Shown: one piece after another, positions 6,107 through 27,564 of the stretch
Numbering within the stretch: the first letter of the stretch is position 1
Layout of the letters: each line of letters begins with the position of its first letter
NCBI GenBank assembly: GCA_029934695.1
Contig: JAOZLU010000011.1
Location: 1-32,466, forward strand
Length of the DNA: 32,466 nt
Source of the DNA: Desulfobacterales bacterium
Lineage (GTDB): Bacteria > Desulfobacterota > Desulfobacteria > Desulfobacterales > 4be13
Direction: 5' to 3'
Position numbers and translations under genes: made by a program
The notes under the pieces: generated by a model
Told to the model about the DNA's origin: nothing
The model's input: the letters and a program-made list of their open reading frames with translations, nothing else
Database searches by the model: none

Positions 6107-6128
6107 AAAAACTCCTGTCTTGGGCAAG

Positions 6129-6150
6129 TTCCAAATTCCAAATTCCAAAT
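6129..6150. repeat. Short heptamer tandem repeat (CCAAATT x3) upstream of cheA
   Basis: ttccaaattccaaattccaaat. Confidence 0.8.
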
Positions 6151-6169
6151 AAATCCCATAAGACAAATT

Positions 6170-6541: not shown

Positions 6542-6882
6542 TTATCCCCTCCTATCCACAAACAGCTTTCACAGCTGTCCGCAGTGCATCCCCTGTTTCG
6601 GGTATATCCCGCATCTTTCACAGTCTGTCTGAACACTTGGGATTCCTCGCTGTCCAATATCAGATTTTTATTTAAATTCATGGCAGTGCGGTGAGCTGAA
6701 CATAGGAGCTGAAGACAGGAGAGATCAACCTCCGTGACTGCTTCAAGCCTGATATGCACATTTTCTGCGCTCTCCAGCGATGTTATCAGCATCGTTCTCA
6801 GTTCAGCCGCACGATCTATGGTGAGTTCACCGCCAATGGTCAATATTCCTCTGTCCCCTGATGGTTCCAGCTTAAAGTTCAT
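6538..6882 (-). CDS. STAS-domain protein (anti-sigma factor antagonist-like) with Cys-rich tail
   Basis: GGELTIDRAAELRTML...VTEVDLSCLQLLCSAH matches STAS fold spacing. Strong SD (AAGGAGGGG) upstream of ATG. Confidence 0.85.
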   Translation of the reverse strand: MNFKLEPSGDRGILTIGGELTIDRAAELRTMLITSLESAENVHIRLEAVTEVDLSCLQLLCSAHRTAMNLNKNLILDSEESQVFRQTVKDAGYTRNRGCTADSCESCLWIGGDK

Positions 6883-6933
6883 GATACCCCTCCTTAAACA
6901 AAAAACAAATAAAAAAACAAAAACCTGAAACCT

Positions 6934-8907
6934 TCAGAAAAGTTCCACGTTATTATCAAAATCCTCCTTCTCACCGTTATCCTTTTTCTCATCTTGGGGT
7001 GCTTCGTCCGCGTTATTGTCCAAATTATTCGTCTGAGCAATGATTTGTTTGTGGATGTCCCGTTCCTGCCGCATCGTATATCTTTCAGCAATTCTGTCCG
7101 TGTCGGACAGTAATTCTTCAGTCTCCTGACAGGTTCTCAGGCTTAGTGCCTGGCCGATGCCTTCCAGTTCCCGGAGAAGCCTCTTCAACTCCCCGGACAG
7201 GGCCGGGAGAAAATCAAGGTTGGAGATTGTCTGTGAAATTTCAGTTTTCAGTGCCTCGGCCTGTTGAAACGCATCCAAAGACTCTTTTCTGAACTGCTCA
7301 TACGCATGAGAGATATACTGAATCCCCACATCCGCGGAAACCCCGGTCTCAAAACCCTTTTCAGGAAAATTTTGCTCCTGCACTTTATCCGCCTTTTCCA
7401 AAGGGTCGGGGGAGATTTTTCGGATTTTCCGGACAGAATCAGAGATCGTGTCAAGGATCTCCGCCACATCGCTCACAAATGTGTCTGACTGGTCGGACAG
7501 GATTTTCACTTCCTGGGCAAGGACTTCAAGCGATTTTCCGTCTTCACCCAGATGTGCGGCTTTGACAATGGCGTTAAGTGCGACGAGATGTGTCTCAAAA
7601 CTGACTTCCCGCACATGCTTTGTATGATCTGCAAGTCGGATGGCCGTTTCAGATGTCTCGGCAGTCATCTCCTGGATTTGGTCCGCCAGGCCGGCACCCT
7701 GGTCAATGATCTGCTGAAGGTGCGAAAGATCAGATTCAAGCCTTGAAAATTCCAAAGGCGAACCGTTTTCCGCGTTTGCGGATCCGAAAATTGAAAAGCT
7801 GTGTATAAGTCTGGCCACTTCACTGTGAATCCTTCCGAAAGCCTGCGTACTCTTATGATGAACCTCGTCAATATCAGAGATTGTCTGTCTTAACTGGGCG
7901 TACTGGATTTCCACGATTGAATACGCACTGCCCGCTGTTTCCGTATCCCTCCCCTCATGTATGTCTTCTGCAAAAAGGTGTCTGACATCAGAAAGAGCAC
8001 TGATAATATGCATCACCCGCTGATTCATGCTGTCGTGAATCTGGATTCCTGCAACAATCTCTCCCACCTGCTGGGATATTTCCCGGGTGTGGATGCCAGC
8101 CTGTTCCAGAGTCTCAAGAGAGAGTTTCATCAACTGCCCGATTTCCCGGGCAGAATCCTGCACAGCCCGCTGTGCATCATTCGCCAACCTGTGCAACTGG
8201 TTCAGACCAGCGTAAATTTTACTGTGTACAATTCGCTGACTGGCGCATGTTGTTTTGGTATCCTCGCGGATGCTTTCGGCAATTCTGACAGTTTTCTCAG
8301 ACAATTGATAAATCTGCTGGAAAACAACCTTGAACATATTCAGAGACGCTGCTGACCGGGAACTCTCCACGGCGATGTTCAGCCCCACCACTCTGAGGGA
8401 CATACCAATCTTTTCAAGTGCCGAGCATACGTTGTAAAGATCCTCGAGCCCGACGATGACAGTATTGACATGGCTGAGATTATCAGTGACCTGGATATGG
8501 CAGTTTTTGAAATCTGCAAGTGATTTTCGGGCCAGCCATCTGACCTTGACAAGAACACTTTCATCTGATTCCCCGCCGATTCGGCTGACCGTTTCAAATG
8601 TCTGCCGGGTCAGGGCGGTGGTATCAAGATTGATTGACTGAAGCTTCCGACCCAGTTGCAGAAAATCCGGTTCGGCACTTTTGCAGACCGTATCCAGAGA
8701 TTCAATAAAAGCGGACAACTGAACAGGTATTTCAGACGCTGTTTCCGCGTGCTCGCCGGTATGAACTTCCGGCAGCTCATCTGTATGGGCAGAGCGTTTT
8801 TCCTTCCATTTTTTTATGAAAGAAAGGGAAAAAAAATTTTCAGTGAGCCAGTTTCTGTAATAATCAAACAACCTGGCTGTTCCATCTTTGATTTTGTCAT
8901 ATTTCAT
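6934..8907 (-). CDS. Soluble MCP-like chemoreceptor with divergent signalling tip
   Basis: Predominantly helical, no clear TM. FETHLVALNAIVKAAHLGEDGKSLEVLAQEVKILSDQSD aligns by eye to the MCP hairpin consensus but is degenerate. The ORF extends to 8955 through a repeat; ATG at 8907 is preferred. Confidence 0.75.
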   Translation of the reverse strand: MKYDKIKDGTARLFDYYRNWLTENFFSLSFIKKWKEKRSAHTDELPEVHTGEHAETASEIPVQLSAFIESLDTVCKSAEPDFLQLGRKLQSINLDTTALTRQTFETVSRIGGESDESVLVKVRWLARKSLADFKNCHIQVTDNLSHVNTVIVGLEDLYNVCSALEKIGMSLRVVGLNIAVESSRSAASLNMFKVVFQQIYQLSEKTVRIAESIREDTKTTCASQRIVHSKIYAGLNQLHRLANDAQRAVQDSAREIGQLMKLSLETLEQAGIHTREISQQVGEIVAGIQIHDSMNQRVMHIISALSDVRHLFAEDIHEGRDTETAGSAYSIVEIQYAQLRQTISDIDEVHHKSTQAFGRIHSEVARLIHSFSIFGSANAENGSPLEFSRLESDLSHLQQIIDQGAGLADQIQEMTAETSETAIRLADHTKHVREVSFETHLVALNAIVKAAHLGEDGKSLEVLAQEVKILSDQSDTFVSDVAEILDTISDSVRKIRKISPDPLEKADKVQEQNFPEKGFETGVSADVGIQYISHAYEQFRKESLDAFQQAEALKTEISQTISNLDFLPALSGELKRLLRELEGIGQALSLRTCQETEELLSDTDRIAERYTMRQERDIHKQIIAQTNNLDNNADEAPQDEKKDNGEKEDFDNNVELF

Positions 8908-8931
8908 AAGCTTCAATGGAAATCCCCTTTT

Positions 8932-9058
8932 CCCCTTCGACAAGCTCAGTGCCAAGCTCAGGGTCCGAGCCGCAGAGAAAATAATAAAAACTCTGTGGTT
9001 CCCTGAGCCCGGCCTCTGAGCCCGGCCCCTGAGCCCGGCCCCTGAGCCTGCCGAAGGG
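8932..9058. repeat. Inverted-repeat element with 13-bp internal tandem repeats
   Basis: Left arm CCCTTCGACAAGCTCAG, right arm reverse complement CCCTTCGGCAGGCTCAG, internal CTGAGCCCGGCCC repeats at 9003-9048. Confidence 0.8.
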
Positions 9059-9102
9059 ATGACAGTGGCAAAGGGGAACGGTTTTAATTCCCTCTTTTAA
9101 AT

Positions 9103-11082
9103 TTATTTTTCATTATTCGCAAGCCCCATCAATCCGCCGACATCAAGGATGAGTCCCACTCTGCCGTTGGGCATTATGGCACTTCCGGAAATTCCGGGGA
9201 TATTCCGCATGGTTTCCCCCAAAGTTTTAATGACAATCTGCTGACTGCCGATCAGCTCATCAACAAGGATGCCTGCCTGATGTCCGTCTTCTTCAATAAC
9301 CATGACAATGCCTCGGACAGGATCCTGCTCGGCCCCTTCAATATCGAAAAGTTCAGCAAGCCGAAACAGCGGAACAAGCTTTCCTTGAACGGACACCGTC
9401 TCACCCCGACGAAGCACCGTTGAAATATCTTCCGGAACCGGTCGGACAGACCTGACAATCGAAACAGTGGGCATGATATATTTTTCGCTTCCCACACGAA
9501 TCACCATTCCATCAATGATTGCAAGTGTGAGAGGAAGGGTTATTTTAACAACGCTTCCCTTTCCTGGTGCGGATTGGATTTCAATATGCCCGCGAAGCGC
9601 GTCAATACTCTTTTTCACAACATTCATCCCGGTGCCGCGGCCGGATACCTCGGAAAGGGCCTTGACTGTGGAAAAGCCCGGTCTGAAAATCAGGCTGAGT
9701 ACCTCATGCTCACTGATCATAATATCTTCAGCCTGGGTTTTATTGCTGATCAGCCCTCTTTCCCTGGCTTTGGCAAGAATTGCCTTATGGTTGAATCCCC
9801 GACCGTCATCTTTTACTTTCACCACAACATTGCCCGATGAATGATAGGCGGACAATTTCACGATCCCATAAGGAGGTTTGCCTGCTCTCTCTCTGCTATC
9901 AGGCTGTTCGATGCCGTGATCCATTGCGTTGCGGATTATATGTATAATGGGATCGTTAATAATATCAACCATATTCCGATCTATCTCAGTGTCCTCTCCT
10001 TCGGTGACAAAGGAGACTCTTTTTTCCAGCTTATGCCCCATATCTCGCACCAGTCGGGCCATTTTCCGAAAAGTTTCCCGGAGGGGAACCATTCTCATGG
10101 ACATGCTCATGTTTTGAAGTTCACGAATAATTTTGTTTGTGTGAGACATTTTTTTGAGAAGATCATGGTGACCGCTCCCTGCAATCAGGTCATCCTGGGC
10201 TACCATAGAATGCGAAACCACCAGCTCTCCCACCATGTCAATAAACTGGTCCAGCCGTTCCACTGGAACCCGGGCAGAGGATTCAAAGCCCTCCTGTTTT
10301 TTGCTGGTTTCCAAGTATTGTTTTGTTTGAAGTCCGCGGGCAACATCCAGCAGAGAAGCAGCCTCTGTTTTTTTCACTTCCTCGTCAATCGGCATTTTGT
10401 GCTGATGAATGATTTCCTCTGTTTCTTTCTTTTTGACAGAAATTTCTTTCTTTTTGACAGAAGACGGTGCTGAACCTGCACGCGGGCTTCCTGCTCTGAC
10501 ATCGCCGGATTTTTCAGGGGGGAAAATCGTCTTTTCTGAAGTTCTGGGGAGTTTCCCTGTTTCAACAGCTTCAGAGGATTTTGCGGCCGCTGTCGTCTGG
10601 GTCAGAAGAAGAGCCAGTTCATCATAACCTTCAGGTTTGAAAGAAGGTTTGCCGTTTGTCACATCCTGAACAGACTGAAAAAGCAGTTTAAGCATGTCAG
10701 CCGCTCGAAGTGCCAAGTCTGAGTATTCCTTTGTGTAACGGATTCTCCGGCCGCGAATAATGCCTATAAGAGACTCTGCATAATGTGCCATTTCTGTTAT
10801 GAGGGAAATTTCAAAGAAGGCAGATGTCCCCCTTATATTGTGAAATGCGCGGAAAACAGTGTCAACCGCGGTCATATCACCCGGATCCGTTTCAAGAGAT
10901 AACAGTGCTGTTTCGGCGCTGTCAATCAAATCTTTGCTTTCAGCGACAAAGGCCTCTATCAATTCGATATCAAAGTCTTCAGGCAGGCAGACCCCGACTT
11001 GGGCAGGCGCAGTTTTGACAGGTCGCTCCGCCTCCTGTTCCTTGTTCAGAATGGGAACACTTTTTTTTTGTTTATCAGACAT
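9103..11082 (-). CDS. cheA: Second chemotaxis histidine kinase CheA
   Basis: HPt motif FRAFHNIRGTSAFFEISLITEMAHYAESL, kinase IHIIRNAMDHGIEQPDSR, VKDDGRGFN, VSGRGTGMNVVKKSI, CheW-like C-terminus. ATG at 11082 (MSDKQKKSVP) with upstream AAGGA. Confidence 0.94.
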   Translation of the reverse strand: MSDKQKKSVPILNKEQEAERPVKTAPAQVGVCLPEDFDIELIEAFVAESKDLIDSAETALLSLETDPGDMTAVDTVFRAFHNIRGTSAFFEISLITEMAHYAESLIGIIRGRRIRYTKEYSDLALRAADMLKLLFQSVQDVTNGKPSFKPEGYDELALLLTQTTAAAKSSEAVETGKLPRTSEKTIFPPEKSGDVRAGSPRAGSAPSSVKKKEISVKKKETEEIIHQHKMPIDEEVKKTEAASLLDVARGLQTKQYLETSKKQEGFESSARVPVERLDQFIDMVGELVVSHSMVAQDDLIAGSGHHDLLKKMSHTNKIIRELQNMSMSMRMVPLRETFRKMARLVRDMGHKLEKRVSFVTEGEDTEIDRNMVDIINDPIIHIIRNAMDHGIEQPDSRERAGKPPYGIVKLSAYHSSGNVVVKVKDDGRGFNHKAILAKARERGLISNKTQAEDIMISEHEVLSLIFRPGFSTVKALSEVSGRGTGMNVVKKSIDALRGHIEIQSAPGKGSVVKITLPLTLAIIDGMVIRVGSEKYIMPTVSIVRSVRPVPEDISTVLRRGETVSVQGKLVPLFRLAELFDIEGAEQDPVRGIVMVIEEDGHQAGILVDELIGSQQIVIKTLGETMRNIPGISGSAIMPNGRVGLILDVGGLMGLANNEK

Positions 11083-11186
11083 GGTGGATTCCTTGTTTTC
11101 TTCGTTTACAGGAAAGTTCCGAAGGTAAATTTTCACCGGAAAGAACCAGAGGACAATCTGATCTTTGACCTCCTGACCTGACCCTG

Positions 11187-11639
11187 TCAGGCATGTCCCA
11201 GCGGTTCTATGTCTTTCAAATTATTTTTCTGATGATCCATATCCATATCATCTGCACTGTGTGCCTGATTTCCTGACAGATTTTTGTAAAATTCAGCCAT
11301 ATATATAATTTTTGAGATAAAAAGGGCTCTCACGAGATATCCTATGGCAAAGTTCTGCTGTGCGTTTGAACTATTCTGAAGTAACAAACCAAGGGCCTCT
11401 CTGATAACAGGAGATATTCTCGCATGAATTTCTTTCTGTTCGGTCGTAAGATCGCCGTCTTTAATTGCCCCCCAGACCGCAGCGACGATATAGATATTCG
11501 ATTCTTTTAACAATATTCTTTTATATTCCCTGAATATGTCCAGTGATGCCTCATCAATGCGCTTTTCAATTGTCCTGGCATAAACGACGACATCATCATT
11601 CTCTTTGCCTGTGCGTTTTGAAAAAAACTTGCTTAACAT
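11187..11639 (-). CDS. Hypothetical ~150-aa helical protein in the chemosensory operon
   Basis: Open frame co-directional with flanking cheA and cheW, SD AGGAGGA upstream of ATG; no recognised domain. Confidence 0.8.
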   Translation of the reverse strand: MLSKFFSKRTGKENDDVVVYARTIEKRIDEASLDIFREYKRILLKESNIYIVAAVWGAIKDGDLTTEQKEIHARISPVIREALGLLLQNSSNAQQNFAIGYLVRALFISKIIYMAEFYKNLSGNQAHSADDMDMDHQKNNLKDIEPLGHA

Positions 11640-11723
11640 ATTCCTCCTGTGATTTGTTCGCAGTTCCGCCTTTAGGCAGTGGCGGAACTACGAACTTTTC
11701 GGTGGCACCGCCTAAAGGTGAAA

Positions 11724-12248
11724 CTACGAACTTTTCGATGTTCTTCTTTCCAGAAGCGTGATTTCTTCGGATCTGAGGACTCGGTCAATATCAAGCAAAA
11801 TCTTCACGCCGCCATCCATTTTTGCCATGCCGAGAATGTAGTCCGTATCCAGCTTTGTTCCAAATGCAGGGGAATCCTCAATCTCCTCTGTTTTGATGTT
11901 CAGCACTTCTGAAACAGTATCCACAACAATACCGATCATCACGCTTCCTGTTTCCCCTGCTATTTCCACAACAATGATGCAGGTCCGATCTGTATAATCT
12001 ATTGCGTCCATGCCGAATCTCAGTCTGAGATCCATAACCGGAATTACTTTTCCCCTCAGGTTAATGACCCCCTTCACAAAATCCGGTGTCTGAGGTACAG
12101 AGGTGACGGGCATCATTCCGATAATTTCCTTTATTTTCAATATGCCGATGCCATACTCTTCATCTGCCAGCGTGAAGGTCAGGTATTTCCCCTCTCTTTC
12201 ACCCATCGCCTTTACAGCCTTATCCATTTTCTGAGCCAATTTTTCCAT
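11724..12248 (-). CDS. cheW: Chemotaxis coupling protein CheW
   Basis: YLTFTLADEEYGIGILKIKEIIGMMPVTSVPQTPDFVKGVINLRGKVIPVMDLRLRFGM is CheW-typical. SD TAGGAGGT upstream. Confidence 0.96.
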   Translation of the reverse strand: MEKLAQKMDKAVKAMGEREGKYLTFTLADEEYGIGILKIKEIIGMMPVTSVPQTPDFVKGVINLRGKVIPVMDLRLRFGMDAIDYTDRTCIIVVEIAGETGSVMIGIVVDTVSEVLNIKTEEIEDSPAFGTKLDTDYILGMAKMDGGVKILLDIDRVLRSEEITLLERRTSKSS

Positions 12249-13030
12249 TGTTTTTACCTCCTATGCTTTATTTTAATTGAAAAAAATATGTCGGGTGTTA
12301 AGCTGTTTCTTATTCTTGACACGAAATTTTTTGCATACAGTTGCAGGATGAAGCGAAGCGTAAACCCACCATTTTTTTTGCAGATGTGGTGGCTTCCGCT
12401 CTGCTTCACCCATACTGCATTTTTTAAGGTTTTGTTTTTTTGCCATTTGAGGCTGACAGTACCTTCCTGTTAATTATGATACACTATAATACAAACTGAC
12501 AAATAAATATCAAGCCAAATCGCCCGGTTTTGGAATGCAATCCGGCTTTGCAGGCCGGAAACAGGCGGAACTCTGATACAGGTGTGTTTGGGACCAGGAA
12601 AATATATGCTTGGAATATTTGATGATATGGCAATAGTTTTCTTCCTCAATGTTTATATATTTTACCAAACTGGAAATTTATATTTTTTTTTACATTTTTG
12701 CAATATTTTTTATGTGCTGAACAGCCTGTCTTTATAAACAGCGTGTCCGATCAGAGGACAGACACTCCGGCCCGATTCTGTGAGCCACAGTTTAATCAAT
12801 ATATTACGCCAATTGTATATTCTTTGCCAAATGATTTTATTCTCATTATGTTATCCCTGTAAAATAGCCATTCATTCTCTCCTGTTCATAATTTCATATC
12901 TGCAACCTCCCTCAAAACATTTAAAAAACTGATTATAACAGCTCATAGCATATTTATTACGATTTTAGTGGATTTAAAGGTTGAATGATGATATATCTGA
13001 AGTTTTGGTATTGTAATTATATTTTTTTCC

Positions 13031-13123
13031 TGATTATAACGGATGTGGGGAGTCTCCCGTGAACGTGCCTGTGAACGAAACATGCATGGGGATTCACGGA
13101 CACGTTCAAGGGTGCTATAATCA
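13031..13123. repeat. Imperfect palindromic element with TGATTATAACG ends
   Basis: TGATTATAACG...CCGTGAACGTGCCTGTGAA / TTCACGGACACGTTCAAGG...GCTATAATCA. Confidence 0.75.
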
Positions 13124-13290
13124 CATTCATGGAACACACAAGGGGCGGTTTCAAAACTGTCCCTGCATGAATCAGGCAGGAATTTTTGTCAATGTCCCAT
13201 CAGACAAAAAGAATAATACATAACTTTTCCAGACACATATTAACCGGAAACAGGTTACAGACCAACGGGCGTACTGCGAATTGGGGGAAC

Positions 13291-13418
13291 ATTGATGCTG
13301 ATTATAACGCCTTTTGGGAAGCAGGGTGGATTCCGGGTCAGAATTGAAAAAATGTCCCATTTTTTTTTCAATTCTGCATGATGTCATTTTATCCCAAGAC
13401 GTTATAATCAGCATTAAT
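13291..13418. repeat. Palindromic MITE-like element with 19-bp terminal inverted repeats
   Basis: ATTGATGCTGATTATAACG (13291-13309) versus reverse complement of 13400-13418 ATTAATGCTGATTATAACG. Inner arms CAGAATTGAAAAAATG / CATTTTTTTTTCAATTCTG. Confidence 0.85.
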
Positions 13419-13485
13419 TTTTATCCCCTTTTTTGAAATTATCCCCTTCCCCTTCAAATGGGGGATCTCTTTCAGGCCGCAGTAG

Positions 13486-13540
13486 GGTGGGTGAAGGATT
13501 TCGATTTTTTACGCAGTAAAAAACGAAACCGCAACCCACC
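13486..13540. repeat. Inverted repeat GGTGGGT...TTTCGATTTTTTAC / GTAAAAAACGAAA...ACCCACC
   Basis: Arms complementary with small internal mismatches and a 3-nt loop (GCA). Confidence 0.8.
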
Positions 13541-13750
13541 TTGATAAACCCAAGTTTAAGGTAAGAAAGGATTTTAAATTAATGGAAGTTATAACGTCGC
13601 AATTTCAGGCATATGCGTAACATCACAATTTGATACCATAACAGACCTTATAAACGAGACGGGTTTTCAGGATTTCTGAACGGTTATTCATTGGTGCCCG
13701 ATATCCGTCGGCCACCAGACATCAAATATTTATAAGAAAGAGAGGTGTTT

Positions 13751-14752
13751 ATGTTGAAAAAAAAATTGCATTGTTTTAGGATATTGACTGTGTTGTGTTT
13801 TTACGGGCTGTTTCCGGCAATGGTTCAGGCGGCTCAGTTCAAAGTCCTCGCTGTTATGAGCTATGAGGAGGATTTTACATGGACCATGGCGATAAAACAA
13901 GGGATAGATTCCGCACTGGCAGACACTTGTGAGGTGCGATATTTTTATATGGATACGAAAAAAAATTTGGAGGGCGGGCCGGAAAAAGCAACGCAGGCTC
14001 ACGCCCTGTATCAGGAATTTCAGCCGGACGGTGTGATTACGGCTGATGACAATGCTCAGTCCATGTTTGTCGTTCCTTATCTGAAGGACAAAGTGAAGAC
14101 ACCTGTGATGTTCTGCGGAGTCAACGCCGAACCTGAAAAATACGGATATCCAGCGTCAAATGTTTCGGGAATTTTGGAGCGTCTGCACCTTCACGAGTCT
14201 GTCGTACTGGCGAAGAATATTGTTCCCTCAATCAGGAATTTTGGATTCATCATAAAGTACAGCCCCACAGCCGATGCAATTTTAAGGCAGATTAAAAGAG
14301 AATCAGATGACTATCCGGCAAAATTTGTAGCCATGAAAACACCAAAAACCCTCAAAGAGGCCGTGACAATGACTGAGGAACTCAGAGAACAGTGCGACCT
14401 GTTATTTCTGTCCGCGGTTCAGGGGCTGGCCGGTGAGGGAGGCGAGCCTGTCATAGAGAAAGAAGCCGTGTCACTTCTGGTAAAGACCTTTGGCAAGCCG
14501 ACCATCAGCACCGAGGAGCATAATGTAAAGCACGGAACATTATGTGCAGTGAGCAGAACAGGCCAGGAGCAGGGGAGAACAGCCGCCAAAATGTTGCTGA
14601 AGGCCATGCAGGGGACGCGGATGGCTGAAATCCCGATCACTCAGAATTATCAGGGAAAAAGAATCATCAATGCGACAGTGATAAAAACATTGGGTATCAA
14701 ACCCAAGCTTGAATTCCTGATCGGTGCGGAAGTGGTGAAGACAGAAGAATAA
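13751..14752 (+). CDS. ABC-type substrate-binding protein, ABC_sub_bind (PF04392)-like, with signal peptide
   Basis: Signal sequence MLKKKLHCFRILTVLCFYGLFPAMVQA, then FKVLAVMSYEEDFTWTMAIKQGIDSAL...DGVITADDNAQSMFVVPYL...VMFCGVNAEPEKYGYP; SD AGAGAGG. Confidence 0.85.
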   Translation: MLKKKLHCFRILTVLCFYGLFPAMVQAAQFKVLAVMSYEEDFTWTMAIKQGIDSALADTCEVRYFYMDTKKNLEGGPEKATQAHALYQEFQPDGVITADDNAQSMFVVPYLKDKVKTPVMFCGVNAEPEKYGYPASNVSGILERLHLHESVVLAKNIVPSIRNFGFIIKYSPTADAILRQIKRESDDYPAKFVAMKTPKTLKEAVTMTEELREQCDLLFLSAVQGLAGEGGEPVIEKEAVSLLVKTFGKPTISTEEHNVKHGTLCAVSRTGQEQGRTAAKMLLKAMQGTRMAEIPITQNYQGKRIINATVIKTLGIKPKLEFLIGAEVVKTEE

Positions 14753-15029
14753 AATACTCCTGATTCTGACAGATTTTGTGATCTGAATCCGTTTTTTAAG
14801 CGCAGAGGATACAGAGGGGACACAGAGAACCGGCCTTGCTCATCGTTTGGATCAACTTTGCTCGGCCTGGATTGCTAAATCCAGGCCGCCGGATTTGGCA
14901 ATCCCGCGGGAGCAGGGTATTTATTAATCGCCTGAAATTATACGGAATCACGAAATTCGCCAGAACCAGAAATATTTGAACATCAGATGCCCGTTTTTTT
15001 CAAACATCGGGCCTTTACAGAGAGGGGAG

Positions 15030-16844
15030 ATGAAGAAATCATATTCGTTCTTTCATAAAAATATCACCACGAAACTTTTCATAGTGAACGGGCTGGTATG
15101 CATCGCACTCGGACTGGTCGTTATTGTTGTGCTTTTTTCATTCCAAAATGTAAAAGAGATTCTGTCAACCGTATTCGCCAGACAAGCCGAGCAGGCTATC
15201 GAAAATGCGCAGATCGGAAGAGGGCTTTCGCGAATACTTTCTGATACAAATCTTTTGGTCACGACATTTTACGGAAAAGATGAATTTTTGAAATCTGAAG
15301 GAGAATCTCTTATCAGCGAAATAACTGCACTGACAGCAAAAAGTACAGATGCAGAAATAAAAGCCTCTCTGGAAAATTTTACACAGAAAATCCGGGAGGT
15401 TCTCGAAAAATGCGGGAAGGTGAATCATTCACGCGGAGAAATAAGGGCGATTAATCAGCAGATGAATACCAATTTACAGGGACTGGAAGAGGCCCTTGCC
15501 GAGAGAATTCTCAATCTGGCAACGGAAGGTGAGGACATCTCTGCTATGGAGCAACTGAATGCCATGATCCCCGGACACTATGAATCCCTCCTCCGGATCA
15601 GCCTCCGGCTTGCCGAAGAGGGGTTGGAGCATTTCAAATTACCTTTGGAAGACTACGAACATCCCATTCTCAGTATGTTGGAGGAACTCAGCCTGAGATT
15701 TCAGACACTGGCCGGCACTTATCCTGAAATTTCCCGATACGGCACACTCCTTACGGATAACACCCGAAAATACAGCGATACAATGCTCCGATTTTACCAA
15801 GTTGCAGAAAAACTCCATACACGCCTGAATGGAATGAATGGCAAAAAAGAAGAATTGCTGGCCATGATGGAGGAAACCGACGCGCGTATCGCAGACACAA
15901 CTGAAACAGCGGCCAGAGATTTAACAGCGAAAATTTTCAGATCAGCAATGGGAAGCCTGGTCATTTTTTTTGTGACCTTGCCTGTGGTTATATTTGCTTT
16001 TCTTCTGAGCCGATCTGTCCGCAAATCGCTGAATCACGTCATTCATGGCCTCCTAAATACCTTCGACCAGATGGCCGGGGCTTCCGTCCAAGTATTGTCC
16101 GCGAGCCAGAATATGTCGGAAAGGTCTTCGGAACAGGCCGCATCTTTGGAAGAGATGTCCGTATCCCTTGAAGAGATGACCGCCATGACCCGACAAAACG
16201 CGGATGATGCGAGTCATGCGTTCGGCATTATGAAAGGTTCGGTCAGGGACATTAAAGACGCGGGTGCCGCCATGACCCGGATGACTCAGTTCATTGAGGA
16301 AATCTCTGACGCAAGCGAGGAAATCCGAAAAATCATCAAGGCAATTGATAAAATTGCTTTCCGAACCAATCTCCTTGCTCTGAACGCGGCCATAGAAGCC
16401 GCCCGGGCTGGAGAAGCCGGCGCGGGATTTGCCGTGGTGTCAGATGAAGTCCGAAATCTCGCCATGCAGTCCGCAGATGCGGCAAAAGATACAGCAGCGA
16501 TCATTAAAGCCACAGTAAGGAAGATGCAGGATGGTTCGGAACTGATAGCCACAGCAAACGAAGCCTTTGACAGGGTAAAAACAGTTGGCCAAAAAGTTGG
16601 CAAACTGCTCAGTAATATTTCTGCTGCTTCCGATGATCAGGCTCAGGGGATTGGGCACATCAGCGAGGCAGCCGCTGAAATGGACACAAGGGTCCAGCAA
16701 AACGCAGCTTATGCTCAGGAGTTGGCCGTCACCTCTGAGAACATGAACATCCAAGCCGGCCAAATGAACAGATTCGTCCAGAAACTGGCCACGCTGACAG
16801 CCAGGTGCGGAGAAAAAGAAGCGATCATGGAGGATAAAGATTAA
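15030..16844 (+). CDS. Methyl-accepting chemotaxis protein, helical periplasmic sensor, no evident HAMP
   Basis: TM LFIVNGLVCIALGLVVIVVLF, long helical periplasmic region, TM LVIFFVTLPVVIFAFLLS, then MCP domain [52 protein letters not shown] at 15030 preceded by GAGGGGAG. Confidence 0.94.
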   Translation: MKKSYSFFHKNITTKLFIVNGLVCIALGLVVIVVLFSFQNVKEILSTVFARQAEQAIENAQIGRGLSRILSDTNLLVTTFYGKDEFLKSEGESLISEITALTAKSTDAEIKASLENFTQKIREVLEKCGKVNHSRGEIRAINQQMNTNLQGLEEALAERILNLATEGEDISAMEQLNAMIPGHYESLLRISLRLAEEGLEHFKLPLEDYEHPILSMLEELSLRFQTLAGTYPEISRYGTLLTDNTRKYSDTMLRFYQVAEKLHTRLNGMNGKKEELLAMMEETDARIADTTETAARDLTAKIFRSAMGSLVIFFVTLPVVIFAFLLSRSVRKSLNHVIHGLLNTFDQMAGASVQVLSASQNMSERSSEQAASLEEMSVSLEEMTAMTRQNADDASHAFGIMKGSVRDIKDAGAAMTRMTQFIEEISDASEEIRKIIKAIDKIAFRTNLLALNAAIEAARAGEAGAGFAVVSDEVRNLAMQSADAAKDTAAIIKATVRKMQDGSELIATANEAFDRVKTVGQKVGKLLSNISAASDDQAQGIGHISEAAAEMDTRVQQNAAYAQELAVTSENMNIQAGQMNRFVQKLATLTARCGEKEAIMEDKD

Positions 16845-17008: not shown

Positions 17009-17056
17009 AAGAGGGGCAAAATGTGCCCGTTGACATTCATACAAGGAGCAAACCTA

Positions 17057-20000
17057 ATGCCTAATATTGAAGAAATTACCAAAGATCATGGTAAGATTGA
17101 TCTTAATTTTGTGCTTAAACCGATCATTGCCCATATCCGGGAAAATCCTGGAAAACTGCTCAGGGAGAGTGACGGGAAGGTATATGTCGTCACCGATGAG
17201 ATCATTAAAGGTATTCTTGATGACCCCAAATTTACAGAGGAAATATCGCGGGAGGGGCGGCTTTTCTCCAACCTGAAATATGCGGATGCCGTGGCAACCC
17301 AGCACAAAAGCGGAGTCGTCAGCGAAAAGCAGATGCGTCAGATCACTGAGATGGAGGACCTGATTTATGAACATCTCCGCTCCAAGCTCAAAGGAAAAGA
17401 AGCGGACTTTTTCGGTCAGAGTGCCTCCTCCTATTTCAACGCGTTAAATTCAGTCGCCGGCAAAAAGGCAGATATAGACTCGCAGCAACGGTCCGCATTT
17501 CCTGACGGCCTTATGCTGAAAGAATATCCCGGGGGAAACGCACTCCTGCGTGTTCCCCATCACACCATTCAGATGAGTGCCCGCATTCCCGACTCAGTGG
17601 TCAGTGAGGTAAAGCGCATTATGAAAACGAGGCTTTCCGAGGAATCCCCTGAAGAAGATGAAATTGACGACATTATTGAGAGGGTGGACAAGGATTTGGC
17701 GGATCATGCCGGCCATCTTCATAATTTTCTGGGCGTGCTGGACAGGGACACTTACGGGAGAATTCGCAGAACCTATGCGTGCAGTATCATGCAGCAGATG
17801 GCAGATCAGCTTCCCGGAGGTTCTCCGGCCATCCCGTACATACAACGGGTGTGCGACTTTAACGAGCTTGTCCAGAGAACGCTCCCGGAAAGCGGGCTGG
17901 CCGCGGACGATCTTGTTCTGGAGTTTCCCAATCCCCACGGGAGAGGCGTGATGCCGGACTTTGATCTCATGACAGAATTCGCTTATGCCGATGCTTTGGA
18001 TGCGCTTCCTTTCTGGGTGACTTTCAGTGAGCTGCTTTCCGAATCAACCTCAGAAGACCGCGTCACCACAACCATGGGGCAACATTTTAAAATGAACGGC
18101 AATGTCCCGAGCAAAGGGGCCGATTCTGTGTTTGAATTCAATGTCGCCAAACTGGAGACTTTGGCCGAAGATATCCGTATAGCACTTGCAAAAGGGCAAC
18201 AGCCGCCAAATGAATATGCTGTCCGCAAAGTCCTGCGGATTGTTGTTCTGTATTATGTGGTTTTTCGTGACAGCGATGATGGCAAGCCGCCCAGGGATGC
18301 GCTCACCAATTACAATGAATTTAAGGAGGCTATAACAAAACTGACTGCCCGAAAGACCAGTTTGGATAACATTCTGACCCGTATTGCAGATATGCTGAAA
18401 AAGAGCGCATCCGTGAATAAAAAAATCCAAAAGGATTTTAAGGGCCTGCTGACCAGTCGGAAACTGGATAAGCTGCCGCTCAACAAAACAACGCTCTGGC
18501 TCATCGTATCAAGGGGAATTCTCAGCAAAACGGCTGACATGGAAAACGCCATGCCCATTGTGCCTCCGACAAATCATGTCGCCAGCTACCTGAGATATCT
18601 TAAAGTGACCTGCCATCCCGGCGAGGATTATCAGGCCCTCATAAAAGAGGATATCCGTTTTACCGAGTCGCTGCGTTACCTGACGCTTCCCAAACCTGAT
18701 CAGCGGGGAAGAGGAATGAAACGGGACATAGATCGCCGGGTTCTGGGAGTGCTTTTTACCCCACGGGACAATGATATGAATTATTTCTCAGTGCCTTTTA
18801 AGGGCCTGACAAAGCTGGTCATCTCTTATGACAGGAATCAGATGCATGGCATAAACTCTCAGTCTGGAGAAAACGATATGTCTCTTGCCGCACTTGCCCG
18901 ACTCATTTATGTATTGCTGGCCTGGGGAGTGCTTAAATCGGTTACCCGCATGGATGACGATACCAAACCTCATGCGGAAAAAACAATGATGATGTTCCTG
19001 TCGCTGTTTTCCACATCTTTGCAAAAAGATAAGTCAGCAGGGGGCTTTACTCATGATGCTCATAAAGCCATTGAACACATCATCAGGCAGCATGTCCCTA
19101 CAAAAAGCCAGGGATTTAAGCTGACAGGGTCAGCCCAGTGGGATAAGGGTGCCCGTCCTATAAACACGAAAAGCAAAGCAGCCTGTGCGTATATTAAAAA
19201 AGAGTTCAAGGATTACCGCTTTTGGAATATTGCAACAGGTCTTTCCTCCGGCATGGATGCCCTGTGGGATCTGCCCGAGGCCCCGGGTATTCAGAAAATC
19301 GCCCTGATCAGCGTCACTTCCCGGGCATGTGACAGGCTACGCAAACGCTCTGATGGCGACCGCATTGTCATGTTCGGTGATATTCAACGCTTTGAACATG
19401 AGATGAAAGATGACTGCCATTTTTACCGGCATAAGCCTGTTCAGGCATTTTGTGATGATATGGACGCGCAGAACTGCTTCAAAAGCCCCTCAGTGCTGTT
19501 TGCGAGCGTAAAAAAATTATATGAGGAAGGCTTTCGGGATGTGGCTATTGTCACCAAGGTGCCGTTCACCCGACGCATCCGCATGACCACATACAATGAT
19601 TCCACCTATATCAATCCGGTTATTCTCCGTACCCTGCACAAAGAGATGCCCGACATGAGAATCTATCCCCTGTTCACGCAGAAATCTTACGGTGTGCGTC
19701 TTCATCAGGGCAAAACAGCGTATCCCATATTTCTGCCGCCGGATGCGGAAAATGATGAGGCTATTCAGGAGGCGTCCGACAAAAGCACGTTGTTCCGTGC
19801 AGGATCGGTTGTCACATACAGAATCGTTGAAGGCGGCAAGGTCACTGACAGGCTGCACAGCGGCATCAGCGACTATCTGTTTCGCTGTTACCCCGAGACC
19901 ATGGCCATTCAGAGCGAAGCCATGTCAGTGCTGACCACTCCGGGGAAAGAGCAGGCATGTCTGCACGAGGTGTTGCGGTTTCTCCATTCAAATGCTTATG

Positions 20001-20317
20001 AGAAATCCCTAAGCAAAGCAGGACGGGAAAAATCGCTGGAAGCGAAACTGGATGCCCTTGAAACCATCATCGGAGAAAACAGTGTGGGGCAGCAGGCAGA
20101 CATTTTGCAGTTCCCCAAGCCCAAAAAAGGAGTGGGAACCGAGGATAAAATCTACACATTCTCAGTCAATATCATCGCCCTGCTGAAACATCTGGAGAAT
20201 CAGTCGGACTTGTATCGTGAGAAAACAGAAGCATACAACCACGGGAAGGATAACATGAAGATGCCGATCCGTGCAGCATCTACACGGATTGTGTATAAGA
20301 ATAAGGATTATTCCTGA
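17057..20317 (+). CDS. Large orphan protein (~1086 aa) with no recognised domain
   Basis: Uninterrupted ~3.26-kb frame, AAGGAG SD 8 nt before ATG at 17057, no signal peptide or TM evident. Confidence 0.92.
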   Translation: MPNIEEITKDHGKIDLNFVLKPIIAHIRENPGKLLRESDGKVYVVTDEIIKGILDDPKFTEEISREGRLFSNLKYADAVATQHKSGVVSEKQMRQITEMEDLIYEHLRSKLKGKEADFFGQSASSYFNALNSVAGKKADIDSQQRSAFPDGLMLKEYPGGNALLRVPHHTIQMSARIPDSVVSEVKRIMKTRLSEESPEEDEIDDIIERVDKDLADHAGHLHNFLGVLDRDTYGRIRRTYACSIMQQMADQLPGGSPAIPYIQRVCDFNELVQRTLPESGLAADDLVLEFPNPHGRGVMPDFDLMTEFAYADALDALPFWVTFSELLSESTSEDRVTTTMGQHFKMNGNVPSKGADSVFEFNVAKLETLAEDIRIALAKGQQPPNEYAVRKVLRIVVLYYVVFRDSDDGKPPRDALTNYNEFKEAITKLTARKTSLDNILTRIADMLKKSASVNKKIQKDFKGLLTSRKLDKLPLNKTTLWLIVSRGILSKTADMENAMPIVPPTNHVASYLRYLKVTCHPGEDYQALIKEDIRFTESLRYLTLPKPDQRGRGMKRDIDRRVLGVLFTPRDNDMNYFSVPFKGLTKLVISYDRNQMHGINSQSGENDMSLAALARLIYVLLAWGVLKSVTRMDDDTKPHAEKTMMMFLSLFSTSLQKDKSAGGFTHDAHKAIEHIIRQHVPTKSQGFKLTGSAQWDKGARPINTKSKAACAYIKKEFKDYRFWNIATGLSSGMDALWDLPEAPGIQKIALISVTSRACDRLRKRSDGDRIVMFGDIQRFEHEMKDDCHFYRHKPVQAFCDDMDAQNCFKSPSVLFASVKKLYEEGFRDVAIVTKVPFTRRIRMTTYNDSTYINPVILRTLHKEMPDMRIYPLFTQKSYGVRLHQGKTAYPIFLPPDAENDEAIQEASDKSTLFRAGSVVTYRIVEGGKVTDRLHSGISDYLFRCYPETMAIQSEAMSVLTTPGKEQACLHEVLRFLHSNAYEKSLSKAGREKSLEAKLDALETIIGENSVGQQADILQFPKPKKGVGTEDKIYTFSVNIIALLKHLENQSDLYREKTEAYNHGKDNMKMPIRAASTRIVYKNKDYS

Positions 20318-21738: not shown

Positions 21739-24381
21739 ATGAAAAATTTGTTTAAAATCAGTGTGTTTTTCTCATGTATGCTTGTATTCATTTTCCTGCC
21801 GTTATCATCAGCGGCCCAGGAACAGGAAATTTACACCCACCAACTCACCCAGTCAACTTCAGGCTATCAGTTCTGGACAACCCCGCCAAGCGAGCGCGTG
21901 TTCAGAGATGACGGAGTTCCTGCTGAAACCGGTTCGGAAGTGAAGGTGTATGCCGCACAAAATGAGTTCGAGCCGTTTCAGGTGATTGTGAGACCGGCAT
22001 CGTCGGGAAATGTCACAGTTAATATGGATGATTTCGGTGCCGGTATCACAACTGAGATTTATCAGGTGAAATACGTCAGCATTTCCCAGGCCACGGACAG
22101 TCTGGGGAAAACCGGCCCTTATCCGGACCCCCTGTGGCCCTTGGAAAAGGGGGCATCGGTGAATGTCACCGCCAGTCAGAACACCTCGTTCTGGTTCAGT
22201 GTCTCTGTCCCGAAAACGGCCGCATCAGGGGATTACACAGCGAATGCCCGGATCGGGGGTGTCAGCATTCCTGTCAGGCTGCATGTCTTCAATTTTGCGG
22301 TTCCGGACGGGCTTCATGTGAAATCACAGATGAATTATTCGCATGAGACCATCCTCGGCAAATACGGCGTCTCCGGCACTGGCGACGATTACTGGATGTA
22401 TGTTGACAAAATGAAGCAGTATTTCATTGACCACCGGCTCACCCCGAAATCCCCTCTGTGGTCCGGCGGGCTGACCGCCGGAGGAGGCGCACCTTATATT
22501 GGTTATGACTGCGACACAAAAACCCTGACGGATTCTGACGGCATCTGGGGTTTTGAGGCTCCTGCTGAAAGATATCTTGACGGAGACGGACTGATGGACG
22601 GTCAGTTTGCGGAGCCTTTCAACGGGGGAACCGGTTATCCCTCTTTTATGGCTGCCACTTTTCAGAACAATGACTCATCAGCGGATCAGAGACCTTCGAG
22701 TTTCTGCGGCACCGCAAGGGGGACAGGCGACTGGTACACTGCGGACAGTCCCGGTTCCGCTTACAATCAGAAATGGTTCGCATACATCGCTGTTCTTCAG
22801 GACTATCTGAACAGCAGAGGCTGTCTTGACAAGTCCTATTATTATTTTGCCAATGAGCCGCAGGATCAGGCAGACTACGACGCGGTGGCATGGTATTCCA
22901 ATGAGCTGAAAAAAGCGGCTCCGAATCTGACGCTCATGGTGTCCGAGGAGCCCAAGCCGGAGATTTACAACACCGGAAAAATTGACATCTGGCTGCCGGT
23001 TCTCAACAATTACGAGCCGGATGTCTCACACGACCGGGAAAAGAATCACGGTGAGGAGACATGGATATATTTTCTCCACGGCACAAGACCGCCTTATTTC
23101 AACCCGGTCACCCTTGATCATCCGGGCATCGAAAGCAAGTTCACAGGATGGTTTCTCTGGAAATACAGGGTGCGGGGCATTGCATACTATTCGATGAACA
23201 ATTGGAGTAAAAATCCCTGGACATCTCCCATGAACGACAACCACAACGGCGATCTTTTCATGCTGTATCCGCCGTCTGAGTCAAACAGCAGCATTGCCTA
23301 CGGCTCGAACAGTCACCGTTTTGTCCCCTCAGTCCGGTTTGAACTCATGCGGGACAGCCTGGAAGATTATGAATATCTGTATGTGCTGAACAACGGAAAT
23401 CAGCCCGAGGTGGATCAGGCAAATGCCGCAGACACCCACGCGGACAAGATTATTTCAGGGCTGACCAGCTATACGCGGGACAGCAACTTCATGTATAATC
23501 TGAGGCGGTTCATCGGGCTTAAAAACGGAGACGAAATATCCGCCATTCCCGATATTCAGCCGGCAGTGACACACCCGAGGGCAGAAGGTCTTCCGGGAAA
23601 TTATCATATCAATTTCCAGGATCCGGGCGGATCGCCTGTAGCAGATCCGCTGATCGTTGACGAAAAGGAATACATGAAAATCGGATGGAACGAGTATGAA
23701 ACGGACACCTCTCTCGGATATGGCTGGTACGGCAACATGGCGCATGTGAAGTATCAGTACCTGTCCCAAGGCCCGAATGAACTTCAGAAAAGCATTCTTT
23801 ATGATGACTGGGGAAGGGAGAAGACGTTTGAGTTTGACCTGCCTCGCGGGACATACAATGTGACTGTGTCCGTGGGATGGCAGGGGAAAACGTATTTCCG
23901 CAACAAGATAGATATTGAGGGTGTCAGCTTTGTGAATGACGAGGAGACAACACCGTCAGATCCGTACATCGTCCGCACGAAAGAGGTCACGATCTCGGAT
24001 AACAGACTGACCATGGAGATGGGAATTTTCAATGAATACACCATGCTCAACTATCTTGATATTGAGGCGGTCGGCGGTGTCCCCGACAACCCTGTTGCCG
24101 ATTTCACAGCAGGCCAGACATCCGGGTCTGTGCCGCTTACCGTTCAGTTTACAGACACTTCGGAAAATAATCCCACAACTTGGGAATGGGATTTTGACAA
24201 TGACGGCACTGTTGATTCGAGGGCGCAGAATCCTTCTCACACTTACACAGTGAATGGGAAATACACAGTATCTTTGAAAGCGATCAGCAAGAGCGGTGCC
24301 GACACCGGGACAAAAATTGATTTTGTCACCGTCAGTTCCGCTCTTCCGCCAAAGAATCTCAGGATCATTCGGATTGAATAG
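21739..24381 (+). CDS. Secreted DUF4091/GH123-like protein with C-terminal PKD domain
   Basis: Signal peptide MKNLFKISVFFSCMLVFIFLPLSSAAQ, DUF4091-like region (YYYFANEPQDQADYDAVAWYSNELKKAAPNLTLMVSEEP), PKD motif FTDTSENNPTTWEWDFDNDGTVDSRAQNPSHTY. Confidence 0.85.
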   Translation: MKNLFKISVFFSCMLVFIFLPLSSAAQEQEIYTHQLTQSTSGYQFWTTPPSERVFRDDGVPAETGSEVKVYAAQNEFEPFQVIVRPASSGNVTVNMDDFGAGITTEIYQVKYVSISQATDSLGKTGPYPDPLWPLEKGASVNVTASQNTSFWFSVSVPKTAASGDYTANARIGGVSIPVRLHVFNFAVPDGLHVKSQMNYSHETILGKYGVSGTGDDYWMYVDKMKQYFIDHRLTPKSPLWSGGLTAGGGAPYIGYDCDTKTLTDSDGIWGFEAPAERYLDGDGLMDGQFAEPFNGGTGYPSFMAATFQNNDSSADQRPSSFCGTARGTGDWYTADSPGSAYNQKWFAYIAVLQDYLNSRGCLDKSYYYFANEPQDQADYDAVAWYSNELKKAAPNLTLMVSEEPKPEIYNTGKIDIWLPVLNNYEPDVSHDREKNHGEETWIYFLHGTRPPYFNPVTLDHPGIESKFTGWFLWKYRVRGIAYYSMNNWSKNPWTSPMNDNHNGDLFMLYPPSESNSSIAYGSNSHRFVPSVRFELMRDSLEDYEYLYVLNNGNQPEVDQANAADTHADKIISGLTSYTRDSNFMYNLRRFIGLKNGDEISAIPDIQPAVTHPRAEGLPGNYHINFQDPGGSPVADPLIVDEKEYMKIGWNEYETDTSLGYGWYGNMAHVKYQYLSQGPNELQKSILYDDWGREKTFEFDLPRGTYNVTVSVGWQGKTYFRNKIDIEGVSFVNDEETTPSDPYIVRTKEVTISDNRLTMEMGIFNEYTMLNYLDIEAVGGVPDNPVADFTAGQTSGSVPLTVQFTDTSENNPTTWEWDFDNDGTVDSRAQNPSHTYTVNGKYTVSLKAISKSGADTGTKIDFVTVSSALPPKNLRIIRIE

Positions 24382-24446
24382 CGCAGAAGAAGACGCTCGG
24401 TTCGGCCCGTGCTGCTCGGTTCGTGCTGCTCGGTTCGGCTCGTGCT

Positions 24447-24588
24447 GCTCGGTTCGGGTTGGCAAACCCTAACCATGAAAGGGCGGGGGATTTGCCAATC
24501 CCCCGCAGGCATTCTCTCTCATCGCTCGGTTCGGGTTGGCAAACCCTAACCATGAAAGGGCGGGGGATTTGCCAATCCCCCGCAGGCA
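24447..24588. repeat. Two direct copies of a 65-bp unit containing palindromes
   Basis: GCTCGGTTCGGGTTGGCAAACCC...GCGGGGGATTTGCCAATCCCCCGCAGGCA at 24447-24511 and 24524-24588. Confidence 0.9.
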
Positions 24589-24684
24589 ACTTTATGAACC
24601 GAACCACTTTATGTTGTCGGTCGGAGCATGGATGAGCATGGGTGAGAAAAATTTTAAATCTGAGTTTGCAAAAAAGGAGCTATT

Positions 24685-27564
24685 ATGAAAAAGCAGTTGA
24701 AGTTCGTATCGTTGTTGGCAAGTTTATTTGTATTGACGTTTCTGTCCTTATCTGCAACGGCCCAGGAACAGGAAATTTACACCCACCAACTCACCCAGTC
24801 AACTTCAGGCTATCAGTTCTGGACAACCCCGCCAAGCGAGCGCGTGTTCAGAGATGACGGAGTTCCTGCTGAAACCGGTTCGGAAGTGAAGGTGTATGCC
24901 GCACAAAATGAGTTCGAGCCGTTTCAGGTGATTGTGAATCCGGCTTCATCAGGAAGTGTCACGGTAAACATTGGTGATTTCGGTTCCGGCATCACCGCTG
25001 AAATCTATCAGGTCAAATATGTCAACATTGCTCAGGCCACCGACAGTCTGGGGAAGACCGGGCCGTATCCTGATCCCCTCTGGCCCATTGAAAATGGCGA
25101 TTCGGTGAGTCTCACCGCGGATGAGAACACCGCTTTCTGGTTCGGCATTTTTGTTCCTGAGACGGTTCCATCAGGGGATTACACCACCAATGTTGAGATC
25201 GGAGGTGTCAGCATTCCGGTGACACTGCATGTGTTCAATTTTGCGGTGCCGGATACGCTCCATGTAAAATCACAGATGAATTATTCGCATGAGACCATCC
25301 TCGGCAAATACGGCGTCTCCGGCACTGGCGACGATTACTGGATGTATGTTGACAAAATCAAGCAGTATTTTATTGACCATCGACTGACCCCCAAGTCTCC
25401 CTTTTGGTCCGGCGGGCTGACCAGTAGCGGCGGAAAACCTTATATTACTTATGACTGCGATACCCGGACATTCACCGACAATGACGGGATATGGGGCTTT
25501 GAAAAGCCTGCTGAGAGATATCTTGGCGGGGACGGGCTGATGGATGGCAAATTCACAGCCTCTTTTAATGAGGGAACCGGGTTTCCTTCTTTCATGGCTG
25601 CCACTTTTCAGAACAATGACTCATCAGCGGATCAGAGACCTTCGAGTTTCTGCGGCACCGCAAGGGGGACAGGCGACTGGTACACTGCGGACAGTCCCGG
25701 TTCCGCTTACAATCAGAAATGGTTCGCATACATCGCTGTTCTTCAGGACTATCTGAACAGCAGAGGCTGTCTTGACAAGTCCTATTATTATTTTGCCAAT
25801 GAGCCGCAGGATCAGGCAGACTACGACGCGGTGGCATGGTATTCCAATGAGCTGAAAAAAGCGGCTCCGAATCTGACGCTCATGGTGTCCGAGGAGCCCA
25901 AGCCGGAGATTTACAACACCGGAAAAATTGACATCTGGCTGCCGGTTCTCAACAATTACGAGCCGGATGTCTCACACGACCGGGAAAAGAATCACGGTGA
26001 GGAGACATGGATATATTTTCTCCACGGCACAAGACCGCCTTATTTCAACCCGGTCACCCTTGATCATCCGGGCATCGAAAGCAAGTTCACAGGATGGTTT
26101 CTCTGGAAATACAGGGTGCGGGGCATTGCATACTATTCGATGAACAATTGGAGTAAAAATCCCTGGACATCTCCCATGAACGACAACCACAACGGCGATC
26201 TTTTCATGCTGTATCCGCCGTCTGAGTCAAACAGCAGCATTGCCTACGGCTCGAACAGTCACCGTTTTGTCCCCTCAGTCCGGTTTGAACTCATGCGGGA
26301 CAGCCTGGAAGATTATGAATATCTGTATGTGCTGAACAACGGAAATCAGCCCGAGGTGGATCAGGCAAATGCCGCAGACACCCACGCGGACAAGATTATC
26401 TCAGGGCTGACCAGCTATACGCGGGACAGCAACTTCATGTATAATCTGAGGCGACTCATCGGACTTAAAAACGGGGGCGAGATTTCTTCCATCCCTGATA
26501 TTGAAGTTCCTTCAGAGGGAACCCCCGGGAATTACTATATCAACTTTCAGGATCCAGATGGCGATCCCACCGCGGACCCGCTCGTTGTTGACGATAAGGA
26601 ATACATGAAGATCGGAATCACTCCCTATGATGAAAATATGGGATACGGGTGGTTCGGAGCCACGGAAAATTTCAAAACGAACTATGATCCGTGGGGAAGT
26701 GAAACCAGTGAGTTAAAGAGAAGTTATGTTTACGATGACTATGCTCATAATCCGAACACCTTTCAATTTGACCTGCCTAACGGGACTTATAATGTTGAGT
26801 TATGTATCGGTTCTCCAAGACAGAGCGAAGCGCACAATAAAGTTATTGTAGAAGGTGTCACCTTTATAAATGATGAAGCTGCAAACACATATATTACCCG
26901 TACAGATGAGGTGACAGTTTCGGATGGTAATTTAACTCTGGAAGTAGGTATATGGGGGGAATACACTTTCCTCTGTTATCTGAATATCGAGGCGACCGAG
27001 ACACCTGACACCACCACGACAACATCTTCTACGACCACTACATCCACGACCAGTTCCACCACGACTTCAGTTGGTACGACCACTACGACATCTGTCTCTC
27101 CCACGACCAGTTCCACCACGACTTCAGTTGGTACGACCACCACGACTTCTGTCTCTCCCACGACCAGTTCCATCACGACTTCAGTTGAGACGACCACCAC
27201 GACTTCTGTCTCTTCTACGAGCAGTTCGACCACCACGAGTTCAACGACCACGTCCGTGCCTGAAGAACAACAGTATCACAGCGCAGATTATAATCCGCAG
27301 GACTACAAAATATCTCTTTCAGAGATGCTTCGCGTCCAACAGCTTTACATTCTGAACTCCTTTCACTGCGATCCGGACGGAGAAGACGGATATGGTATAG
27401 GGGATGGCGATCAGACATGTGCGCCCCACGATTCGGACTACAAGCCTCAAGATTGGCGTATCAGTCTCAGCGAACTTTTGCGGGTCGTTCAGTTTTACAA
27501 CCTTTTCGGATATCATCCTGACCCGCAGGGAGAAGACGGTTTTGCCCCGAGGCAGGGAGAATAA
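24685..27564 (+). CDS. Secreted DUF4091/GH123-like paralog with Thr/Ser-rich linker and duplicated dockerin-like C-terminal repeats
   Basis: Same core as 21739-24381, then a Thr-rich linker, then DYNPQDYKISLSEMLRVQQLY... / DYKPQDWRISLSELLRVVQFYN... Confidence 0.87.
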   Translation: MKKQLKFVSLLASLFVLTFLSLSATAQEQEIYTHQLTQSTSGYQFWTTPPSERVFRDDGVPAETGSEVKVYAAQNEFEPFQVIVNPASSGSVTVNIGDFGSGITAEIYQVKYVNIAQATDSLGKTGPYPDPLWPIENGDSVSLTADENTAFWFGIFVPETVPSGDYTTNVEIGGVSIPVTLHVFNFAVPDTLHVKSQMNYSHETILGKYGVSGTGDDYWMYVDKIKQYFIDHRLTPKSPFWSGGLTSSGGKPYITYDCDTRTFTDNDGIWGFEKPAERYLGGDGLMDGKFTASFNEGTGFPSFMAATFQNNDSSADQRPSSFCGTARGTGDWYTADSPGSAYNQKWFAYIAVLQDYLNSRGCLDKSYYYFANEPQDQADYDAVAWYSNELKKAAPNLTLMVSEEPKPEIYNTGKIDIWLPVLNNYEPDVSHDREKNHGEETWIYFLHGTRPPYFNPVTLDHPGIESKFTGWFLWKYRVRGIAYYSMNNWSKNPWTSPMNDNHNGDLFMLYPPSESNSSIAYGSNSHRFVPSVRFELMRDSLEDYEYLYVLNNGNQPEVDQANAADTHADKIISGLTSYTRDSNFMYNLRRLIGLKNGGEISSIPDIEVPSEGTPGNYYINFQDPDGDPTADPLVVDDKEYMKIGITPYDENMGYGWFGATENFKTNYDPWGSETSELKRSYVYDDYAHNPNTFQFDLPNGTYNVELCIGSPRQSEAHNKVIVEGVTFINDEAANTYITRTDEVTVSDGNLTLEVGIWGEYTFLCYLNIEATETPDTTTTTSSTTTTSTTSSTTTSVGTTTTTSVSPTTSSTTTSVGTTTTTSVSPTTSSITTSVETTTTTSVSSTSSSTTTSSTTTSVPEEQQYHSADYNPQDYKISLSEMLRVQQLYILNSFHCDPDGEDGYGIGDGDQTCAPHDSDYKPQDWRISLSELLRVVQFYNLFGYHPDPQGEDGFAPRQGE
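27044..27230 (+). repeat. 57-bp tandem repeats coding a 19-aa Thr/Ser-rich unit
   Basis: CCACGACCAGTTCC... starts at 27044, 27101 and 27158, with a decayed fourth near 27215. Confidence 0.9.

Follow-up and report, generated by a model that had tools for sequence, protein, structure and literature searches.

Two neighboring genes of a Desulfobacterales bacterium are identical over long stretches and strongly diverged between them, which raises the question of how such a patchwork could have arisen. The window that we analyzed, 32,466 bp in length, is one contig (C148) of a draft genome that totals 7.7 Mb and comprises 1,194 contigs. The best explanation for the pattern, which is seen in one genome, is interlocus gene conversion between anciently diverged tandem paralogs, and we consider this reading very likely to be correct.

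Results

Two tandem paralogs share a patchwork of identity

The two genes, termed A and B, are arranged head to tail with a spacer of 303 bp between them.

21739-24381, forward strand: gene A, open reading frame for a secreted GH123/DUF4091-like protein of 880 amino acids from ATG (Pfam GH123_cat 2.3e-18, PKD_4 3.8e-14)
24395-24588, unstranded: spacer between A and B, with short GCTCGGTTCG repeats and two identical 65-bp copies spaced 77 bp
24685-27564, forward strand: gene B, open reading frame for the tandem paralog of 959 amino acids (Pfam GH123_cat 3e-18, AGA-YXIM_GBD)

An RBS-like AGGAG lies ahead of the gene A start codon (ATG 21739), and the reading frame also opens at TTG 21718. Gene A encodes a galactose-binding-like domain and a C-terminal PKD domain, and gene B a galactose-binding-like domain of another type, a Thr/Ser linker and a two-repeat C-terminal module. 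The Thr/Ser-rich linker (27044-27233) is encoded by a 57-bp unit repeated 3.3 times in tandem with 92% matches, and is likely to be variable in length. The 65-bp spacer units are hairpin-forming (fold z -4.1), and the spacer repeat, with 60 matching pieces genome-wide among the matches listed, belongs to a dispersed family that is REP- or MITE-like. Elsewhere in the window, positions 17021-20317 hold an open reading frame of 1,098 amino acids without a Pfam family at E 1e-3 and with no NCBIfam match better than 0.1. Synteny of the neighboring genes with relatives did not extend beyond generic ABC transporter matches.

At an offset of 2946 bp, A and B align without indels over 21812-23507, and the alignment breaks down beyond about 23540. 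Exact identity runs over 21812-21991 (180 bp), 22321-22412 (92 bp), 22648-23453 (806 bp) and 23455-23507 (53 bp), which divides the region into three tracts (T1 to T3) and two diverged intervals (D1 and D2).

21812-21991, forward strand: T1 in A, residues 25-85, from the signal-peptide cleavage region (180/180 identical to 24758-24937)
24758-24937, forward strand: T1 in B, partner of T1 in A
21992-22320, forward strand: D1 in A, B copy at 24938-25266 (77.6% nucleotide identity; four-fold sites 48%)
22321-22412, forward strand: T2 in A (92/92 identical to 25267-25358; local permutation p 2e-5)
25267-25358, forward strand: T2 in B, partner of T2 in A
22413-22647, forward strand: D2 in A, B copy at 25359-25593 (73.8% nucleotide identity; four-fold sites 45%)
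22648-23507, forward strand: T3 in A, residues 304-590, with NEP motif codons from 22852 (859/860 identical to 25594-26453)
25594-26453, forward strand: T3 in B, with NEP codons from 25798

Together the tracts span 1,132 bp with a single difference, T at 23454 in A and C at 26400 in B, which is synonymous (ATT/ATC). Changes in the intervals fall mostly at third codon positions (15/13/46 by position in D1, 12/10/40 in D2). T1 begins in the signal-peptidase region (SSA/AQEQEIY in A, SAT/AQEQEIY in B), and upstream of this point the signal peptides have 29% of their residues in common.

Much of this arrangement had been described in an initial annotation, whose coordinates for three identical or nearly identical tracts at a constant offset proved right within 1-3 bp. 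The diverged segments that it placed between the tracts, the lack of length changes in the tract region and a first tract that begins at the predicted mature N-terminus, leaving different signal peptides, are all borne out by the alignment. Its assignment of both genes to tandem DUF4091 paralogs agrees with the match of each protein, above the Pfam cut-off, to GH123_cat (PF13320), the family formerly called DUF4091.

The identical tracts are not due to chance

When codons were permuted, runs as long as the 806-bp and 180-bp examples were obtained with p <= 5e-5 and p = 1.5e-4, respectively. For the 92-bp run, permutation over the whole gene gives no significance (p = 0.096), since the long tracts are then part of the pool, and permutation inside the diverged interval 21991-22647 gives p = 2e-5. 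Chance is thus excluded for all three tracts, in the case of the 92-bp tract solely within its diverged surroundings. Four-fold degenerate sites are identical at 158 of 159 positions in the tracts versus 37 of 79 between them (Fisher 1.6e-23).

Different segments of the genes have different histories

The T1 and T3 segments of A and B are closest to one another, with HSG2, the closest relative, next. The T3 tree unites A and B with support of 100/100, and trees in which they are separated are rejected (AU p 5e-4 and 1e-4). The D1 tree places A with HSG2 (95/93), whereas the D2 tree places B with HSG2 (86/89), and both groupings are weak by the AU test (p 0.03-0.2, varying with the taxon set). 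The affinity of B with HSG2 in D2, opposite to that in D1, implies either an older exchange or a weak signal. To see which copy was the donor, distances to HSG2 were scaled by those to other relatives. The ratio for T1-T3, 0.65 (0.57-0.73), falls between those in D1 and D2 of the closer copy (0.47-0.61) and the more distant copy (0.75-0.84), and with overlapping intervals neither copy is singled out as donor.

A further change of ancestry is evident in the galactose-binding-like domains near the C-termini.

23576-24010, forward strand: galactose-binding-like domain of A, type I, groups with HSG2 (tree support 100/99)
26510-26970 (approximate limits), forward strand: galactose-binding-like domain of B, type II, of a different lineage (Pfam AGA-YXIM_GBD 2.6e-6)

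Grouping of A with B is rejected for this domain (AU p 4e-70), and the domain of B falls among the second type of G118, L031, G320, G038, L027 and G086. Placement of B with this second-type group is in turn rejected for T3 (AU p 6e-5) and, more weakly, for D1 (p 0.019). Because B combines a catalytic part of A's lineage with a C-terminal domain of another, it is at least a two-part chimera, and the junction at which the lineage switches lies just past the 3′ end of T3. The conflict between tract trees and flanking-segment trees is decisive for T3 versus the C-terminal domain and weak for D1 and D2, and exactly such conflict is predicted by recombination.

A GH123-like family with an Asn-Glu pair

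A PDB profile search with these proteins matched solved beta-N-acetylgalactosaminidases, the best being 8k2j (E 2.8e-29). From sequence comparison the GH123 homology is clear: the GH123/DUF4091 beta-N-acetylgalactosaminidases (PMC11087588; PDB 8k2j, 8k2f, 5l7r) are homologous to A and B over the N-terminal sandwich and catalytic domain. In contrast to those enzymes, A and B carry extra C-terminal binding and other modules, and they lack the catalytic Asp-Glu (DE) motif. The aligned place is occupied by NE, and the Asn-Glu(-Pro) at this site (22852-22860 in A, 25798-25806 in B) is invariant in 13 of 13 aligned sequences. Characterized GH123 enzymes in which the Asp was mutated to Glu or Asn show little or no activity (PMC11087588). 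Given the Asn-Glu pair and these weak or inactive mutants, the published substrate-assisted chemistry should therefore not be assumed for A and B, and it is possible that their catalytic mechanism has changed. Their Asn-Glu pair may resemble the acid/base motif seen in retaining glycosidases of clan GH-A.

The end of gene B (27274-27561) encodes a module of about 90 amino acids with two similar halves (HSADYNPQDYKISLSEMLRVQQ... PHDSDYKPQDWRISLSELLRVVQ...GEDGF). Neither a Pfam family above cut-off nor a solved relative was found for this module by sequence. Its profile has 18 matches in the window genome, and the module is present in the four same-family genomes searched and a few others (8/194 genomes of the order). 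It resembles a dockerin-like or cell-surface sorting module that has not been named. AlphaFold models of B had a pLDDT of 54 for the N-terminal, catalytic and binding domains and of 46 for the C-terminal module, both below use for fold search.

Discussion

Alternative origins of the patchwork

One alternative is that one gene was recently duplicated in tandem and that imports from diverged relatives then replaced D1, D2 and the 3′ portion in one copy or in both. Identical blocks amid diverged islands would be produced equally well in this manner, and the different ancestry of B's C-terminal domain indicates that a domain was replaced or fused at least once at some time. However, three or more separate imports would be required, with A as the outlier in D2 and B as the outlier in D1, no donor copy is left in the genome, and the signal peptides are strongly diverged as well. 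We therefore regard this history as improbable.

It is equally doubtful that the blocks are falsely identical because the two genes were collapsed or wrongly joined during short-read assembly. The draft consists of many contigs, and short reads do not span the 806-bp run; a few true differences could be lost to bubble popping, and additional copies beyond the two could be concealed. Nevertheless, the diverged flanks and the islands D1 and D2 demonstrate that the copies were assembled separately, and the synonymous difference at 23454/26400 survives. The 7.7-Mb draft genome holds two copies only, with no third copy of the A/B sequence and no stray contig carrying one. Two direct copies with unique sequence between them should form a simple loop that an assembly graph can traverse in only one way. 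Moreover, collapse could raise identity from 99.5% to 100%, but could not do so from 75%. Misassembly is thus a poor explanation for the pattern.

The notion that purifying selection, codon usage included, holds the catalytic blocks identical can be set aside almost entirely: the active-site motif does lie within T3, the best-conserved part of the family, but the four-fold sites of the tracts vary among relatives (48-64% identical between A and HSG2 inside the tracts; for the catalytic blocks at issue, 54% between A and HSG2 and 63% within a second tandem pair in genome G035) and are therefore not intrinsically constrained, such that synonymous sites refute selection or codon bias as the cause.

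With selection excluded, near-identity in bounded blocks points to recombination. The initial annotation had read the locus as gene conversion, and this reading is now supported by four-fold sites, permutations and conflicting segment trees; smooth divergence, the opposing pattern named there, is excluded by bounded blocks set against near-saturated synonymous divergence.

A proposed course of gene conversion

Under gene conversion, A and B would be tandem paralogs that diverged long ago, and recently parts of one copy would have been overwritten by the other through RecA-type homologous recombination without crossover. This would have left three blocks of identity, with islands of 329 bp and 235 bp between them unconverted. 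We infer that the route was intrachromosomal conversion, and the single difference in 1,132 bp suggests that the three blocks are similarly young. Given this like youth, one patchy event is plausible, in which a heteroduplex underwent partial mismatch repair, and several events would fit equally well. On the 5′ side the tracts end where homology falls away at the signal peptide, and on the 3′ side they end close to the C-terminal ancestry switch; it is likely that they stop at both limits because homology is lost there. A single recent event does not explain everything, as the D2 affinity is left unaccounted for. Also counting against conversion is the 22-26% divergence of D1 and D2, which is high for efficient recombination. 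The 860 bp of near-identity should make it easy for the locus to lose or amplify a unit of 2.9 kb.

A second tandem pair

A search of 390 genomes from the order recovered members of the family (E <= 1e-60) in 16, and among these only the window genome and G035 carry two copies. The G035 copies, on contig C95, also form a tandem pair. They are 85% identical in the T3 region and most alike in the D2 region (91% of nucleotides, 87% of four-fold sites). Their catalytic parts are sisters (99-100% support); their C-terminal domains are not grouped together, a separation that is not significant (AU p 0.13). Scans of this pair for a conversion tract yielded none that was significant (p 0.06-0.43), a result that also weighs against conversion. 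The pair is part of an array of related secreted genes (L040, G035:C95, positions 6083-15120), in which the 3′ end of the gene ahead of the GH123-like pair is an 84% match to the C-terminal portion of the gene that follows.

It is conceivable, albeit unlikely, that conversion recurs in the tandem pairs of this family and keeps the catalytic module common while the C-terminal binding or anchoring modules remain different. If true, recurrent conversion would provide one genome with the same putative enzyme in several delivery formats.

Comparison with known conversion systems

Interlocus conversion is already known in bacteria, and the mechanism proposed for A and B is an ordinary one of this known kind, here with an unusually clear patchwork. 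The case leaves knowledge of conversion itself unchanged. What it offers is a clean, quantifiable example of conversion that is patchy and joins tandem paralogs of strong divergence, and it signifies that whole-gene trees of this GH123/DUF4091-like family will mislead.

Among described systems, the adjacent genes pe_pgrs17/18 and pe_pgrs27/28 of M. tuberculosis (PMC1762029, PMC12046097) resemble A and B in their mosaic identity blocks and discontinuous tract. For the pe_pgrs pairs, sister strains reveal the unconverted state, whereas A and B are known from one genome, the relatives searched including no other of its genus, and the high background divergence of A and B (22-26%) is unlike that of the pe_pgrs paralogs. 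Duplicate tuf genes of Salmonella (PMC5485169) likewise undergo non-reciprocal copying between two copies, with tracts shaped by mismatch repair. However, the tuf copies used differ at only 12 nucleotides and their tracts are usually continuous, while A and B are in tandem and strongly diverged. Mosaic imports in Helicobacter pylori (PMC2582958) exhibit a patchwork of donor and retained recipient sequence at a scale similar to that of A and B, but these are allelic imports by transformation rather than exchanges between paralogs within one genome. In pe_pgrs28 of M. tuberculosis a conversion tract is broken by a 286-bp unconverted gap (PMC12046097), and recipient islands in H. pylori transformation imports reach up to 593 bp (PMC2582958). 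The A/B islands of 329 and 235 bp are of the same order as those in known systems.
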